Made by a program: the position numbers and the translations under genes. A stretch of DNA of 39,622 nt from Bacteroidales bacterium (GTDB lineage: Bacteria > Bacteroidota > Bacteroidia > Bacteroidales > PUMT01). Positions 33,431 to 39,427 of the stretch are shown in pieces (positions within the stretch are counted from its first letter, which is position 1; each line of letters begins with the position of its first letter). The notes beneath the pieces were generated by a model that saw only the letters and a list, made by a program, of their open reading frames with translations, did no database searches and had not been told where the DNA came from. The stretch lies in contig SLOE01000071.1 in NCBI GenBank assembly GCA_007132715.1, forward strand, positions 1 to 39,622. The letters are read 5' to 3'.

Positions 33431-35674
33431 ATGAAGAGCAGAAGGGAGTTTATCAAGATCTCGGCACTGGGACTTGGAGGCTTTGCACTTGCAGGGGGAG
33501 CAGGTATGGCCCTGCGCACCGCTCTCAACCAGGGCATGCCCGGGGCTGCCGAACTTACCCCCGACCTAACCAGGACACCCACCTACTGCGAAGTATGTTT
33601 CTGGAGATGCGCAGGCTGGGTATACAAGGATGAGCAGGGCAGGTTGTGGAAGATTACCGGCAACGATGATGACCCCTTGTGCCACGGCCGGCTTTGTCCC
33701 CGCGGAACCGGGGGAGTCGGAATGTACTACGACGAGGACAGGCTCAGGACTCCGCTGATGCGTACCATGGAAAACGGAAAGCAGACCTACAGGGAAGCCT
33801 CATGGGAAGAAGCCCTTGACTTTATTGCACGAAGGCTGAAAGAGATAGCTGCTGAGCACGGTCCCGAATGTATCGCGCTGTTCACTCACGGATCCGGCGG
33901 CGAATATTTCAGCACACTGCTGCAGGCAATGGGTTCGACCTCTGTTGCAGCACCCTCATATTCACAGTGCAGGGGGCCCCGCGAAGTGGCCTTCATAACA
34001 ACTTATGGACAGGGACTTGAATCACCGGAAATAACCGATATCCGCGACACCCGCTGCCTCGTACTGATAGGCTCACACCTGGGAGAGAACATGCACAACA
34101 CCCAGGTCCAGGAAATGTCTGATGCCCTTGCCAAAGGAGCGACCATCATTACCGTTGATCCCCGCTTCTCGGTGGTTGCGGGTAAATCCAAATACTGGCT
34201 GCCGATCAAGCCGGCAACCGACCTTGCTCTTCTTCTTGCATGGATACATGTGATAATTGAAGAGGAGCTATACGACAAGGAGTATGTCGAACGTCACACC
34301 TACGGTTTTGAGCAGCTAAGGACCCACGTAAGGAGCTTCACACCGGAATGGGCGTACGGAATAACTACCATCGAGCCCGCTACCACCAGGCGTACCGCAC
34401 GCGAAATGGCAGCAGCATCACCCGCTGTGATTATTCATCCCGGACGCCATGTTACCTGGTACGGTGATGACACACAACGGCTCAGGGCAGTGGCAATACT
34501 GAATGCCCTGCTTGGAAGCTGGGGACGCAGGGGAGGCTTCTACATGCCCGACAGGGTGCAGGTGCCGCAGTACCCCCGGCCGCCGTTCCCCGAACCCGCC
34601 CGCACATGGAGGGAGGCATTCCCCGACAGGTATCCGCTCGCCGACCTGGCCCTGGCCTCCGGCATATGTGAAGCGTCAATACCCGGTGCAACACCCGAGT
34701 GCAACTTCAAGGCATGGATAGTCAACGGCACCAACCTGCTGATGACCTTGCCGGATCAGGAACAGACCAAAGAGGCGCTCCGCAGCCTCGACCTGGTCGT
34801 GGTGGTAGATACCATGCCCGCCGAGATAACGGGGTGGGCAGATGTGGTGCTGCCGGAATGCACCTATCTCGAAAGGTACGATATAATAAGAAACTCGCCT
34901 GCACGGAATCCCAACATTGCCCTCAGGGCGCCGGCCACCGGGCCTCTGTACAACACCAAACCTGCCTATTGGATGGCCAAAGAGCTTGCCGTACGTATGG
35001 GGCTCGGCGATTACTTTGCGTGGGAAAGCATTGAGGAGATGCTTGACTGGCAATTCAAAGAGCTCGGCACATCCCTGGAAGAGATGATGCGCACAGGTGT
35101 AAAGAATTATCCCAGGAACTTTGACGACATCTACTTTGCCGATGGCCGGGATATCGAATTCTTTACCAACACCGGCAAGATCGAGCTCTGGTCCACCACC
35201 ATGGAGGCAGCAGGATTCGACCCGCTGCCGGTTTACACACCTCACGAGGAGCCTTCTGAAGGTTATTACCGCCTCAATTACGGAAGGGCTCCCATGCACA
35301 CATTTGCGCGCACCGCCAACAATCCGAATCTGGCCGACCTGATGGAAGAGAACGACCTGTGGGTCAACCCTGTTGTAGCAGGGCTTTGGGGACTCAAAAC
35401 GGGGGATTATGTGAGACTGCAAAACCAGGACGGCATCGTGAGCACTTTTTCTATCAAGGTAAGGGTAACCGAAAGGATAAGGTGGGATTCGGTATATATG
35501 GTCCACGGCTTCGGTCACGCCGATCGCAGGCTTGGAAGAGCCTATGGCCGGGGAATAAACGACACAGAGCTTATGAGCCGGGTGCACTACGATCCCATAA
35601 TGGGCGGCACCGGCATGCGCGGTAATTTTGTAACCTTCATTCTGGATGATACAGGGAAGGAGGCACGCTCATGA
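33431..35674 (+). CDS. Molybdopterin oxidoreductase catalytic subunit, PsrA/PhsA-like (polysulfide/thiosulfate reductase type)
   Basis: Tat signal SRREFIKISALGLGGFALAGG; 4Fe-4S ligands CEVCFWRC...LCPRG; SYSQCRGPREVAF as the likely Mo-ligand Cys; followed by FeS and NrfD-like subunits. Confidence 0.88.
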   Translation: MKSRREFIKISALGLGGFALAGGAGMALRTALNQGMPGAAELTPDLTRTPTYCEVCFWRCAGWVYKDEQGRLWKITGNDDDPLCHGRLCPRGTGGVGMYYDEDRLRTPLMRTMENGKQTYREASWEEALDFIARRLKEIAAEHGPECIALFTHGSGGEYFSTLLQAMGSTSVAAPSYSQCRGPREVAFITTYGQGLESPEITDIRDTRCLVLIGSHLGENMHNTQVQEMSDALAKGATIITVDPRFSVVAGKSKYWLPIKPATDLALLLAWIHVIIEEELYDKEYVERHTYGFEQLRTHVRSFTPEWAYGITTIEPATTRRTAREMAAASPAVIIHPGRHVTWYGDDTQRLRAVAILNALLGSWGRRGGFYMPDRVQVPQYPRPPFPEPARTWREAFPDRYPLADLALASGICEASIPGATPECNFKAWIVNGTNLLMTLPDQEQTKEALRSLDLVVVVDTMPAEITGWADVVLPECTYLERYDIIRNSPARNPNIALRAPATGPLYNTKPAYWMAKELAVRMGLGDYFAWESIEEMLDWQFKELGTSLEEMMRTGVKNYPRNFDDIYFADGRDIEFFTNTGKIELWSTTMEAAGFDPLPVYTPHEEPSEGYYRLNYGRAPMHTFARTANNPNLADLMEENDLWVNPVVAGLWGLKTGDYVRLQNQDGIVSTFSIKVRVTERIRWDSVYMVHGFGHADRRLGRAYGRGINDTELMSRVHYDPIMGGTGMRGNFVTFILDDTGKEARS

Positions 35675-36204
35675 GATACGCCATGGTAATTGACACAAAG
35701 AAATGCGTGGGCTGCAGCGACTGTGTGGTGGCCTGCCAGACAGAGAACAAGGTACCCATAGGCTATGCACGCGACTGGGTGGTGGAGGTTACCACGGGTA
35801 CCTATCCCCACCTGCAGATGGAAATACGCTCCGAACGCTGCAACCAGTGTGAGAACGCACCCTGTGTACGATGCTGTCCGACCGGGTCAAGCCACTACTC
35901 AACCGGAGGTATAGTGCTGGTAAAGCCGAGACGGTGCATAGGATGCGGTGCATGTATAACATCATGCCCCTACGACGCAAGATTTCCCCACCCCAAAGGT
36001 CATGTCGACAAGTGCACCTTCTGCGACCACAGGATAAAAGAGGGTAACCAGCCGGCCTGTGTTGAAGTTTGCCCCACCAGGTGCATGTACTTCGGCAACC
36101 TGGATGACCCGGGAAGCGAAGTTTCAAAGCTGCTGAGGCAGAGAAGATATAAAACACTTATACCGGAGGCAGGAACAAAACCTCATCTCTATTTTCTGAC
36201 ATGA
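35671..36204 (+). CDS. 4Fe-4S ferredoxin-type electron transfer subunit (PsrB/DmsB-like)
   Basis: Repeated Cys motifs CVGCSDCVVAC, CNQCENAPCVRCCPTG, CIGCGACITSCPYDAR, CTFCDHR...CVEVCPTRC. Confidence 0.94.
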   Translation: MRYAMVIDTKKCVGCSDCVVACQTENKVPIGYARDWVVEVTTGTYPHLQMEIRSERCNQCENAPCVRCCPTGSSHYSTGGIVLVKPRRCIGCGACITSCPYDARFPHPKGHVDKCTFCDHRIKEGNQPACVEVCPTRCMYFGNLDDPGSEVSKLLRQRRYKTLIPEAGTKPHLYFLT

Positions 36205-36223: not shown

Positions 36224-37165
36224 ATGAGAGAAGAAGTGATAATAAGCGGACGCATGAACCCCATGATAGATCCGCAACTGAACATCTGGCACTGGCACAT
36301 TCCCCTCTACCTCTTTCTTGGGGGACTGGCGGCGGGCATTCTTTTCTTTGCCGCCCTCTATACCATCCAGGGTAAGGAAAAGCTGTATCCAGCCGCAGTT
36401 AAGAGAGCTCCGTTCATCACCCCTTTCATACTGGTGATCGGACTGCTGGCGCTGCTCCTGGACCTCAACAACAAGCCCTACTTCTGGCAGCTCTACACCA
36501 CACTGAGGCTTGAATCGCCCATGTCCTGGGGAGCATGGACCCTCATGGTGGTAACACCCATCTCGTTCATCTGGTGCGCCCTCAACATAAGGGAGATATT
36601 CCCCTCATTCGACTGGAAATACAGATGGATCAAACGGCTTGAGTCTTTCTTTACAAAGTACAAAATAGCAATGTCGTGGGTGCTGCTGATCTTCTCGGTC
36701 ATCCTCGGCATATATACCGGAATACTTTTCTCGGCATTCAACGCCAGGCCCCTGTGGAACACATCCATCCTCGGTCCGCTCTTCCTTGCCTCGGGCCTGT
36801 CGACAGGTGCAGCATACATAATGCTGGTATCCCGTTCCCACGCCGAAAGGGTCATGTTCTCCAAAATAGACATAGTGCTTATAGGCATTGAGCTGTTTTT
36901 GATCATACATATGTTCATGGGGTTTCTGGCAAGCACCCAGGTGCAGATAGATGCAGCAGGCCTGTTTTTAGGGGGACCGTACACGGTAGTTTTCTGGGTG
37001 TTCGTGGTGTTCCTCGGAATGGTACTGCCGGCCATCCTTGAAGTACTTGAGCTCAACAAATTCCGGGTACCGGTGCTGATACCGGGATTACTGGTGCTTT
37101 TCGGGGGATTGATGTTCAGGTTTGTGATTGCTTACGCGGGACAGGCAAGCAGATGGCTGTACTGA
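36224..37165 (+). CDS. NrfD/PsrC-like integral membrane quinone-interacting subunit
   Basis: HWHIPLYLFLGGLAAGILFFAALY, LLLDLNNKPYFWQLYTTLRLESPMSWGAWTL. Confidence 0.92.
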   Translation: MREEVIISGRMNPMIDPQLNIWHWHIPLYLFLGGLAAGILFFAALYTIQGKEKLYPAAVKRAPFITPFILVIGLLALLLDLNNKPYFWQLYTTLRLESPMSWGAWTLMVVTPISFIWCALNIREIFPSFDWKYRWIKRLESFFTKYKIAMSWVLLIFSVILGIYTGILFSAFNARPLWNTSILGPLFLASGLSTGAAYIMLVSRSHAERVMFSKIDIVLIGIELFLIIHMFMGFLASTQVQIDAAGLFLGGPYTVVFWVFVVFLGMVLPAILEVLELNKFRVPVLIPGLLVLFGGLMFRFVIAYAGQASRWLY

Positions 37166-37264: not shown

Positions 37265-37777
37265 ATGCGAAACAAGTATCTTAATCCTTACATCGGCGGG
37301 GTGTTGCTGGGACTGGTTCTGCTGGCGGCAAACTTCGTTTCTGGACGGGGACTTGGTGCCACTGGTGCACTCAGAGACACCATAGCAACAGGAGTAAAGG
37401 CAGTAGCTCCCTCCCACTACCATAACGCCGCCTATTACAGCGACAACTATGCCATGCGTACGGAGCGACCAATGAACTCATGGCTTGTCTACCAGATGCT
37501 CGGGCTTATCACCGGGGGCTTCCTGTCAGGCATAATTGCCGGAAGGACAAAGCTGACCACAGAACGTCCCTCCTGGGTCTCTTCGCGCAGGCGGCTCTTC
37601 TTTGCGCTGGCCGGGGGAATTCTTTTCGGCTACGGCTCACAGATCGGCCGGGGCTGCACCTCAGGCTCGGCATTGAGCGGAATGGCGGTGCTCTCGTTTG
37701 GGGGATTTATCACCATGATGGCAATATTCGGCACCGCCTTTGCCCTGGCATGGTTCTTCAGGAAAAACTGGATATAA
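37265..37777 (+). CDS. YeeE/YedE-family (sulfur/thiosulfate transport) half-protein 1
   Basis: YIGGVLLGLVLLAANFVSGRGLGATGAL, GGILFGYGSQIGRGCTSGSALSGMAVLSFGGF. Confidence 0.9.
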   Translation: MRNKYLNPYIGGVLLGLVLLAANFVSGRGLGATGALRDTIATGVKAVAPSHYHNAAYYSDNYAMRTERPMNSWLVYQMLGLITGGFLSGIIAGRTKLTTERPSWVSSRRRLFFALAGGILFGYGSQIGRGCTSGSALSGMAVLSFGGFITMMAIFGTAFALAWFFRKNWI

Positions 37778-37916: not shown

Positions 37917-38507
37917 ATGGGACCACTGATAGTATATGACGCAATTAGCAGCAACACCAACCTTCTGCTGGCATTTTTCATCGGCATAGGATTTGGTTTC
38001 GTGCTTGAGCAAAGCGGTTTCTCCTCAAGCCGCAAGCTGGCCGGTATGTTCTATGGCTACGACACCACCGTGCTGAAGGTATTTTTCACCGCGGCCATAG
38101 TTGCAATGACCGGACTCCTGTTTTTCAGCCTTTTCGGGTGGATGAACCTCGATGTGGTTTACGTTAACCCCACCTACCTCACCTCGGCAATAGCCGGCGG
38201 TGTTATCATGGGTGCGGGGTTCATTCTCGGAGGGTTCTGCCCCGGAACAAGCTTCTGCGCCGCAGCTATAGGGAAGATTGACGCGTTTGTCTTTATAGGG
38301 GGCCTCTTTATAGGAATATTTATCTTTACCGAAGGTTACCCCCTTTGGGAAGGTTTTCACAATGCAGGTTTCATGGGGTCACCACGCGTAAACGAAATGA
38401 TCGGGCTGTCGCAGGGGGTATTCGCATTTCTGCTGATACTGGCAGCCTTCGGTATGTTCTGGGCAGGCGAATGGGCCGAAAGGAAATTTGCAGGCAACTA
38501 CAGATAG
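37917..38507 (+). CDS. YeeE/YedE-family (sulfur/thiosulfate transport) half-protein 2
   Basis: FFIGIGFGFVLEQSGFSSSRKLAGMFYGYDTTVLKVFFTA, GGVIMGAGFILGGFCPGTSFCAAAIGKIDAFVFIGG. Confidence 0.9.
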   Translation: MGPLIVYDAISSNTNLLLAFFIGIGFGFVLEQSGFSSSRKLAGMFYGYDTTVLKVFFTAAIVAMTGLLFFSLFGWMNLDVVYVNPTYLTSAIAGGVIMGAGFILGGFCPGTSFCAAAIGKIDAFVFIGGLFIGIFIFTEGYPLWEGFHNAGFMGSPRVNEMIGLSQGVFAFLLILAAFGMFWAGEWAERKFAGNYR

Positions 38508-38681: not shown

Positions 38682-39311
38682 ATGCAAAAGATCAATCCAA
38701 GAATTCTGCTTGCGATAATACTGATACCAATGGGACTTATAATTGCGATGGTCCCGGAAGATACGACCGGCAGCCGTAAGGTCTCAACCGAACAGATCCT
38801 GCAGGAGATCTCATCCGGCAGCCAGTTCGTTTCGCCTGATGAGGTGGCAGGTATGATAGTTGAGAACAACCCTGTCCTTCAGCTCATTGACGTGCGAAGC
38901 AGCAATGAATTTGAAAACTTCAGCCTCCCGGGCGCGGTCAATATTCCGCTTACAGACATACTGTCGGCCGAATGGAGAGATATTCTCGACCAGGATGTAA
39001 GGATCAACGTATTTTACTCCAACGGCTCAGTCCATGCAAACGAAGCATGGCTCCTGACCCGCCAGCAGGGATACAGGAACAACTATGTACTGCAGGGCGG
39101 ACTGAATTACTGGATGGAGGCGATAGTAAACCCCGATCCGCCTTCCAACTTAAGTCCCGATGAAGAATTCGCGAGGTACGATTTCAGGAGGGCCGTCAAC
39201 AGTGCCCTTGGAGGTGAAACGGTGGAACGCACCGTTGAGGCTCCGCCCCCTCCGCCAATGCCGTCGATCAGGCCCCGTGAACGTGCAACGGTGGTACAGG
39301 GAGGTTGCTGA
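38682..39311 (+). CDS. Membrane-anchored rhodanese-fold protein lacking catalytic-loop Cys, with C-terminal Gly-Gly-Cys
   Basis: N-terminal TM (ILLAIILIPMGLIIAMV); LQLIDVRSSNEFENFSLPGAVNIPL; INVFYSNGSVHANEAWLLTRQQGYRNNYVLQGGLNYW; PPPPPMPSIRPRERATVVQGGC terminus; ATG at 38682 preferred over the longer ORF start. Confidence 0.85.
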   Translation: MQKINPRILLAIILIPMGLIIAMVPEDTTGSRKVSTEQILQEISSGSQFVSPDEVAGMIVENNPVLQLIDVRSSNEFENFSLPGAVNIPLTDILSAEWRDILDQDVRINVFYSNGSVHANEAWLLTRQQGYRNNYVLQGGLNYWMEAIVNPDPPSNLSPDEEFARYDFRRAVNSALGGETVERTVEAPPPPPMPSIRPRERATVVQGGC

Positions 39312-39427
39312 ACACCCTGCCCGGTAACAGAATATCGCGGGTCCACATTTAACATGTATGCGTTAGGCAAAATGCCCCTGGTGGTAAAGGGAGGTTGCTG
39401 AACACCCTGCCCGGTAACATAATGTCG
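39290..39427 (+). repeat. 48-bp direct repeat pair, offset 90 bp, at the 3' end of the rhodanese gene
   Basis: ggtggta(c/a)agggaggttgctgaacaccctgcccggtaaca(g/t)aat(a/g)tcg at 39290-39337 and 39380-39427; 3 mismatches, 32-bp exact core. Confidence 0.95.

Follow-up and report, generated by a model that had tools for sequence, protein, structure and literature searches.

A membrane-anchored rhodanese-fold protein with a conserved C-terminal Gly-Gly-Cys arm beside a split YeeE-type channel in Bacteroidota: a candidate sulfane-sulfur carrier

The window analysed here, a stretch of 39,622 nucleotides from a Bacteroidales bacterium, carries genes for a molybdopterin enzyme of the polysulfide/thiosulfate reductase type, the two halves of a YeeE-type channel and a small rhodanese-fold protein (Table 1). 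The first-pass annotation, made from the sequence alone, had placed the rhodanese gene behind two YeeE halves and a PsrABC-like operon, and Pfam bears this out, finding two Sulf_transp half-proteins preceded by molybdopterin, FeS and NrfD genes. Cys131 of PmpA and Cys108 of PmpB are invariant (40/40 sequences each), a second PmpB cysteine, Cys114, is near-conserved (37/40), and Cys180 of PsrA is conserved in 40/40. The context of the PmpA and PmpB cysteines fits the pair that has been equated with Cys293 and Cys91 of TsuA (PMC11582611).

Table 1. Features of the sulfur locus, in window positions
Feature	Position	Strand	Basis
PsrA/PhsA-like molybdopterin catalytic subunit, N-terminal RR motif (MKSRREFIK)	33431..35674	+	PF00384; NCBIfam
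PsrB-like 4Fe-4S subunit	35671..36204	+	PF13247 and others; NrfC/TtrB-like in NCBIfam
PsrC/NrfD-like quinol-interacting membrane subunit	36224..37165	+	PF03916, E 3e-48
PmpA, C-terminal half of YeeE/TsuA-type channel	37265..37777	+	PF04143 positions 174-309; Cys131 40/40
PmpB, N-terminal half of YeeE/TsuA-type sulfur channel	37917..38507	+	PF04143 positions 4-156; Cys108 40/40
Membrane-anchored rhodanese-fold protein with C-terminal GGC arm, 209 aa	38682..39311	+	Translation, Pfam, AF2, family comparison
N-terminal transmembrane anchor, residues 6-23	38697..38750	+	AF2 helix; hydrophobic segment in 130 family members
Rhodanese domain, residues 51-146	38832..39119	+	PF00581, E 9e-15; Foldseek
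Remnant catalytic loop Y-S-N-G-S, Ser113 at Cys position	39015..39029	+	Direct reading, alignment
Flexible Pro-rich C-terminal arm, residues 176-209	39207..39308	+	AF2: no secondary structure, mean pLDDT about 55-71
Terminal Gly-Gly-Cys codons, sole Cys is residue 209	39300..39308	+	GGC invariance in family alignments
Copy 1 of 48-bp direct repeat, covering last codons and downstream DNA	39290..39337	+	
Copy 2 of 48-bp repeat (94%), encoding stray VVKGGC-stop outside gene	39380..39427	+	

The open reading frame list starts the rhodanese frame 66 bp further upstream, at a TTG, but the alignment to relatives begins at the Met encoded at 38682. The rhodanese domain is the sole Pfam match of the protein, with no SoxY domain, DsrC fold or TusA-like fold detected by Pfam, and a Foldseek search with the AF2 model (mean pLDDT 88.6, domain about 95) returned rhodaneses as the top matches. 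No NCBIfam model scored above its cut-off, and what relatives the protein has in the PDB and NCBIfam are rhodaneses of the generic kind. The fold is thus that of PF00581 by both Pfam and structure comparison, and the catalytic loop cysteine of that family is missing, the loop reading NVFYSNGSVHANEAW with Ser113 in its place. The only cysteine of the protein is its last residue, at the tip of a tail of about 34 residues that ends in PPPPPMPSIRPRERATVVQGGC and is unstructured in the AF2 model from about residue 176. Translation and Pfam therefore agree with the first reading of this gene as a rhodanese fold with a Cys-less loop and a sole, terminal cysteine in a GGC tail.

The same reading had proposed an N-terminal anchor and a domain probably outside the membrane. 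The AF2 helix supports the anchor, and the rhodanese domain is predicted to lie outside the cytoplasmic membrane because positive charge is greater on the N side of the anchor than on its C side in 89 family members (smaller in 22), and because, in a PmpB-rhodanese fusion that we examined, a basic linker follows the last hydrophobic segment of PmpB and precedes another hydrophobic segment. The AF2 model of the fusion was of too low quality in the membrane region (mean pLDDT 63.7) to place the domain.

As the 3' end of the gene lies within a 48-bp direct repeat, of which no further copy was found elsewhere in the genome, the tail might be an artefact of a frameshift or of the repeat. Relatives from other MAGs, with 76 to 92% identity, have the same Cys-less loop and end in PVVQGGC, PVVTGGC or AVVQGGC; two near relatives, both Bacteroidales MAGs, bear the label CSSed, which we take to be Cock Soda Lake sediment. 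The agreement of these ends rejects a frameshift or sequencing error, which had been named in advance as a possible refutation, and an origin of the tail from the repeat is rejected as well, because GGC is kept in relatives with unrelated 3' DNA. The same ending recurs in more than 100 homologues, and at L042, the one apparent exception of this type, a frameshift conceals a GGCS end, so that we give the artefact a negligible chance. Nor is the terminal GGC of the tailed rhodaneses a matter of chance: in one complete genome a search for GGC followed by TAA or TGA finds 21 sites, of which just two lie at the end of an ORF of 100 aa or more, namely the two tailed rhodaneses. The loop-cysteine loss and terminal cysteine seen at 38682-39311 are thereby confirmed as a real and conserved property of the family. 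Downstream of the gene, in the second repeat copy, a stray mini-frame at 39354-39401 reads MYALGKMPLVVKGGC before a stop, and at L004 a decayed echo resembling PVIQGGRR lies downstream of the tailed gene; both may be what remains of a duplicated tail or of another tailed gene.

Rhodanese matches, many of them full length, were found in 175 of 295 genomes searched within the order, and 120 neighbourhoods collected across Bacteroidota, the one phylum sampled and represented by many MAGs, were annotated with profiles. A rhodanese beside this subfamily of PmpA/PmpB halves, or fused to PmpB, almost always has a terminal or penultimate cysteine (about 120 loci), the endings being mostly GGC, with EGC, MGC and GGLC as well; EGC and MGC are frequent in other Bacteroidota classes. 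Among 30 aligned divergent members, 25 to 76% identical to the window protein, GGC is invariant along with D70, R72, G139 and G140, and the rhodanese body is variable; from the conserved Y-x-F-R motif to the C-terminal end, relatives have 34 to 52 residues. In the first set of loci, 128/140 rhodanese copies end in GGC or GGCx, with the cysteine last or next to last. The remaining 12 comprise (i) four EGC/GSC variants, (ii) the out-of-operon double rhodaneses L117 and L122, (iii) a contig end (L095) and the frameshift at L042, and (iv) the seemingly tailless second copies L089, L091 and L104 and the PmpB fusion L121. The tailless second copies at L089, L091, L117 and L125 and the tailless fusion at L121 were counted against a carrier role. 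PmpB-rhodanese fusions end in GGC or GGCx in 20/20 aligned cases, with Cys108 of PmpB invariant there. Two fusions (L284, 3168-4376; L285, 2101-3312) end in GGLCG and GGLCS, with the cysteine one step off the Gly pair, and a rhodanese adjoining PmpAB at L187 ends in EDLRFQC, a terminal cysteine without glycines. All further ORFs of 150 aa or more that bear a tail in the first set encode rhodanese-domain proteins, according to Pfam (PF00581) for those checked with it and, for the rest, to a match with a double-rhodanese profile derived from sequences of this same type. A search of a plasmid collection returned distant PmpB-like matches only, and literature searches, conducted in open papers, yielded no description of a GGC-tailed rhodanese.

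The residue at the position of the loop cysteine is less uniform. In 126 GGC-tailed single rhodaneses it is Ser in 79, Gly in 23, Ala in 11, Cys in 6, Tyr in 4, His in 2 and Thr in 1; none of the PmpB-rhodanese fusions has a loop cysteine, and a few second copies retain both the loop cysteine and the tail. Among the sampled proteins the tail is the constant, and loss of the loop cysteine is the rule for the small ones without being strict. The first-pass annotation had foreseen both features conserved together beside YeeE, and this is supported, with the refinement that a few second copies and the tailed double rhodaneses keep the loop cysteine along with the tail.

Some operons add a tailed double rhodanese that is plausibly catalytic, the loop cysteine being kept in 38/39 domains of such proteins. 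Tailed double rhodaneses with intact loop cysteines were observed at L074, L075, L083, L084, L089, L090, L094, L097, L100, L102, L105, L110, L114-L116, L118, L120, L123 and L124. Double rhodaneses away from the operon are tailless at L051, L117, L122, L125 and L160, as are those directly beside it at L078-L080, L082, L088 and L119. On the double-rhodanese tree the tail needs 8 changes, at least 5 of them forced by well-supported branches, which rejects a single origin; the tail appears to have been gained or lost several times on these proteins.

Genes are commonly arranged as PsrA-PsrB-PsrC-PmpA-PmpB-rhodanese, an operon encoding a single tailed rhodanese in the group to which the window belongs and two or three, divergent from each other, in other families; in many loci the rhodanese is fused to PmpB. 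When loci were chosen by PmpB alone, a tailed rhodanese adjoined or was fused to it in 28/30; of the remaining two, one lies at a contig end and the other is the frameshift already described. No tailed rhodanese accompanies three more distant PmpAB pairs of the classical kind, and the PmpAB tied to the tailed rhodaneses form a distinct subfamily. Psr with PmpAB is the most common locus type; PmpAB with tailed rhodaneses and no Psr occurs in about 40 loci, as judged within the fetched stretch and with some limited by contig ends. Conversely, a 99% complete genome (G601, locus L161) has PsrABC and two GGC-tailed rhodaneses, and no Sulf_transp protein was detected in it. Strict dependence of the tail on the Mo enzyme is rejected by the many Psr-less loci, and strict dependence on PmpAB is not supported, given the genome of L161. 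An arm that can serve both partners would agree with neither of them being strictly needed. In view of the Psr-less loci and L161, the hand-over between Mo enzyme and channel suggested in the first-pass annotation is one possible arrangement, with the Mo enzyme not a required part, and that interpretation as a whole is partly supported. At L050 (G139), the PsrA, PsrB, PsrC and PmpB frames are all broken and the tailed rhodanese is intact, which reflects either poor assembly or a decaying operon.

Where a locus encodes at least two tailed rhodaneses (50 loci), tails of the same locus agree at 4.3 of the eight residues that precede GGC, versus 1.7 for tails of different loci. The pairing of each first listed copy with the second gave 238 versus a null of 93 ± 8, a value reached in 0 of 10,000 permutations; as these treat loci as independent, the count is no formal probability. 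The rhodanese domains themselves show no within-locus excess (27% identity within versus 31% between). Codons match at 339 of 699 identical tail positions, with 332 expected from codon usage, so gene conversion or other recent DNA copying is not supported as the source of the likeness, although conversion so old that the codons have become saturated may still account for it. Since recent copying would make the codons identical, the likeness is kept at the protein level, which points to co-adaptation of the tails to a partner common to all arms of the cell; it could instead mark a sorting tag. Tail charge did not correlate with the charge of PmpA loops in the four PmpA regions computed.

We consider it probable that the window protein is a periplasmic, membrane-tethered carrier of sulfane sulfur that works by a swinging arm on a degenerate rhodanese, a reading we favor because of the SoxY, DsrC and Sud-like precedents and the proposed delivery of sulfur by SoxYZ to SoxT. 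It is supported by the conserved tail, the lost loop cysteine, the linkage to the operon, the fusions to PmpB and the co-variation of tails among paralogues. The persulfide on the terminal cysteine, its donors and acceptors, and the direction of flow are what we infer, and they can be pictured as follows: (i) the anchor would keep the domain beside the PmpAB channel, and in some lineages the domain is fused to PmpB; (ii) the rhodanese core, its loop-cysteine chemistry gone, would now serve as a scaffold or docking domain; (iii) the terminal Gly-Gly-Cys on the flexible arm, which at about 34 residues could reach well beyond the domain, would take up sulfane sulfur as Cys-S-Sn from polysulfide, thiosulfate or, where present, the double rhodanese with its loop cysteine; and (iv) the arm would offer this sulfur to the PmpAB pore, whose halves each keep one invariant cysteine, and, where PsrA is present, may offer it to the Mo site of that enzyme as well.

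The main rival to such a carrier is a docking or gating peptide, in which arm and cysteine plug the mouth of PmpAB or bring the complex together through a disulfide, and no sulfur is carried. The co-variation of paralogue tails fits a common binding site, and so does the occurrence of tails with one PmpAB subfamily, their lack beside classical PmpAB and their retention in PmpB fusions; however, tails persist in a genome that has Psr and lacks a Sulf_transp protein, and a near-absolute terminal or penultimate cysteine on the tailed proteins suits chemistry better than binding alone, which leaves this alternative rather unlikely in our judgment. Less likely again, and improbable overall, is that the tail is a signal for processing or sorting, for instance through lipidation or another modification at the cysteine, in the manner of other tags at the C-termini of bacterial surface proteins. 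A short terminal motif on a variable linker, with a common style in each genome and a modular gain and loss on double rhodaneses, is what such a signal might look like, but these proteins already have an N-terminal anchor or a membrane-protein fusion, no other protein in the complete genome has the ending (ORFs of at least 100 aa, GGC plus TAA/TGA), and where other ORFs of 150 aa or more in the loci carry a tail, they match rhodanese models.

Inactive rhodaneses are common, and with PDB and NCBIfam relatives that are generic, the protein might be an ordinary degenerate rhodanese whose terminal cysteine assists in redox chemistry or metal binding and takes no part in transfer. We hold this to be very unlikely, since a protein that had lost its function would not keep GGC at the end of a rapidly evolving linker in one class after another, and co-variation among the tails of paralogues would not follow from such a loss either.

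Taken more broadly, the sulfur-carrying arm may represent an undescribed class of extracytoplasmic sulfur carrier in Bacteroidota, a proposal on which we are evenly divided: the active site would have moved from the loop to a terminal cysteine on a mobile arm, the divergent rhodaneses of an operon (two dead-loop arms and a catalytic tailed double rhodanese) would share one co-adapted arm serving a split YeeE channel as well as a Mo enzyme of the Psr type, and the whole would be a convergent counterpart of SoxY. The family would then give a compact, testable answer to how sulfane sulfur is presented to YeeE/PmpAB from outside the membrane, one that would concern a major phylum, soda-lake bacteria among them. 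If true, a SoxY-like arm has evolved on a rhodanese body, and many rhodaneses so far matched by generic rhodanese models only would acquire a functional meaning. The within-genome co-variation of tails, as a sequence signal of a common partner, can guide experiments.

Several known systems share single features with the window protein. The channel halves resemble PmpA/PmpB (YedE1/YedE2), described as split YeeE halves with one conserved cysteine each (PMC11582611), and TsuA/SoxT, in that two half-length Sulf_transp neighbours each keep one conserved cysteine; the subfamily of the window differs in being tied to tailed rhodaneses, which the three classical Pmp pairs lack. TsuB/YeeD, the cytoplasmic TusA-like partner of TsuA (PMC11582611), is a single-Cys protein paired with a YeeE channel, whereas the window protein is a rhodanese without a TusA-like fold by Pfam and is predicted on the outer face. 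As in PsrABC/PhsABC, Mo catalytic, FeS and NrfD subunits are encoded in one operon, here directly upstream of PmpAB and the rhodanese, but the best NCBIfam model for the PsrA-like protein, PhsA, scores 467 bits, below its 694 cut-off, and a polysulfide or thiosulfate substrate is putative. Sud is a soluble dimer that works through its loop cysteine. This periplasmic, rhodanese-fold protein of Wolinella succinogenes, thought to carry polysulfide for PsrABC (PMC2628731), is a distant PDB relative (1qxn, E 4e-5) and shares with the window protein the fold, the occurrence with PsrABC and the periplasmic location, which for the latter is predicted from charge bias; the window protein differs in its Ser at the loop position, its membrane anchor and its cysteine on the tail.

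The mobile arm of DsrC, which is persulfurated at the penultimate cysteine of a flexible C-terminus (PMC3397948), had been offered as the analogy in the first-pass annotation, and for a flexible C-terminus with a near-terminal cysteine, as in DsrC/TusE, it is apt; however, DsrC is cytoplasmic, has its own fold and serves DsrAB, and Pfam detects no DsrC-type domain in the window protein. SoxY, extracytoplasmic and carrying sulfur intermediates on a C-terminal GGCGG arm (PMC6067878), is the closer parallel, and a hand-over of sulfur from SoxYZ to SoxT has been proposed for YeeE-like transporters (PMC11582611). SoxY and the family of the window protein both place Gly-Gly-Cys on a C-terminal arm, although this family ends in GGC or GGCx, with the cysteine last or next to last (GGC, GGCS, GGCG), and not in GGCGG, and SoxY has its own fold, a SoxZ partner and a place in Sox thiosulfate oxidation, unlike a membrane-anchored rhodanese. 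By the features tested, the window protein is a rhodanese by fold and not a SoxY, DsrC, TusA or Sud, and it is by analogy that we liken its probable manner of working to SoxY and DsrC.
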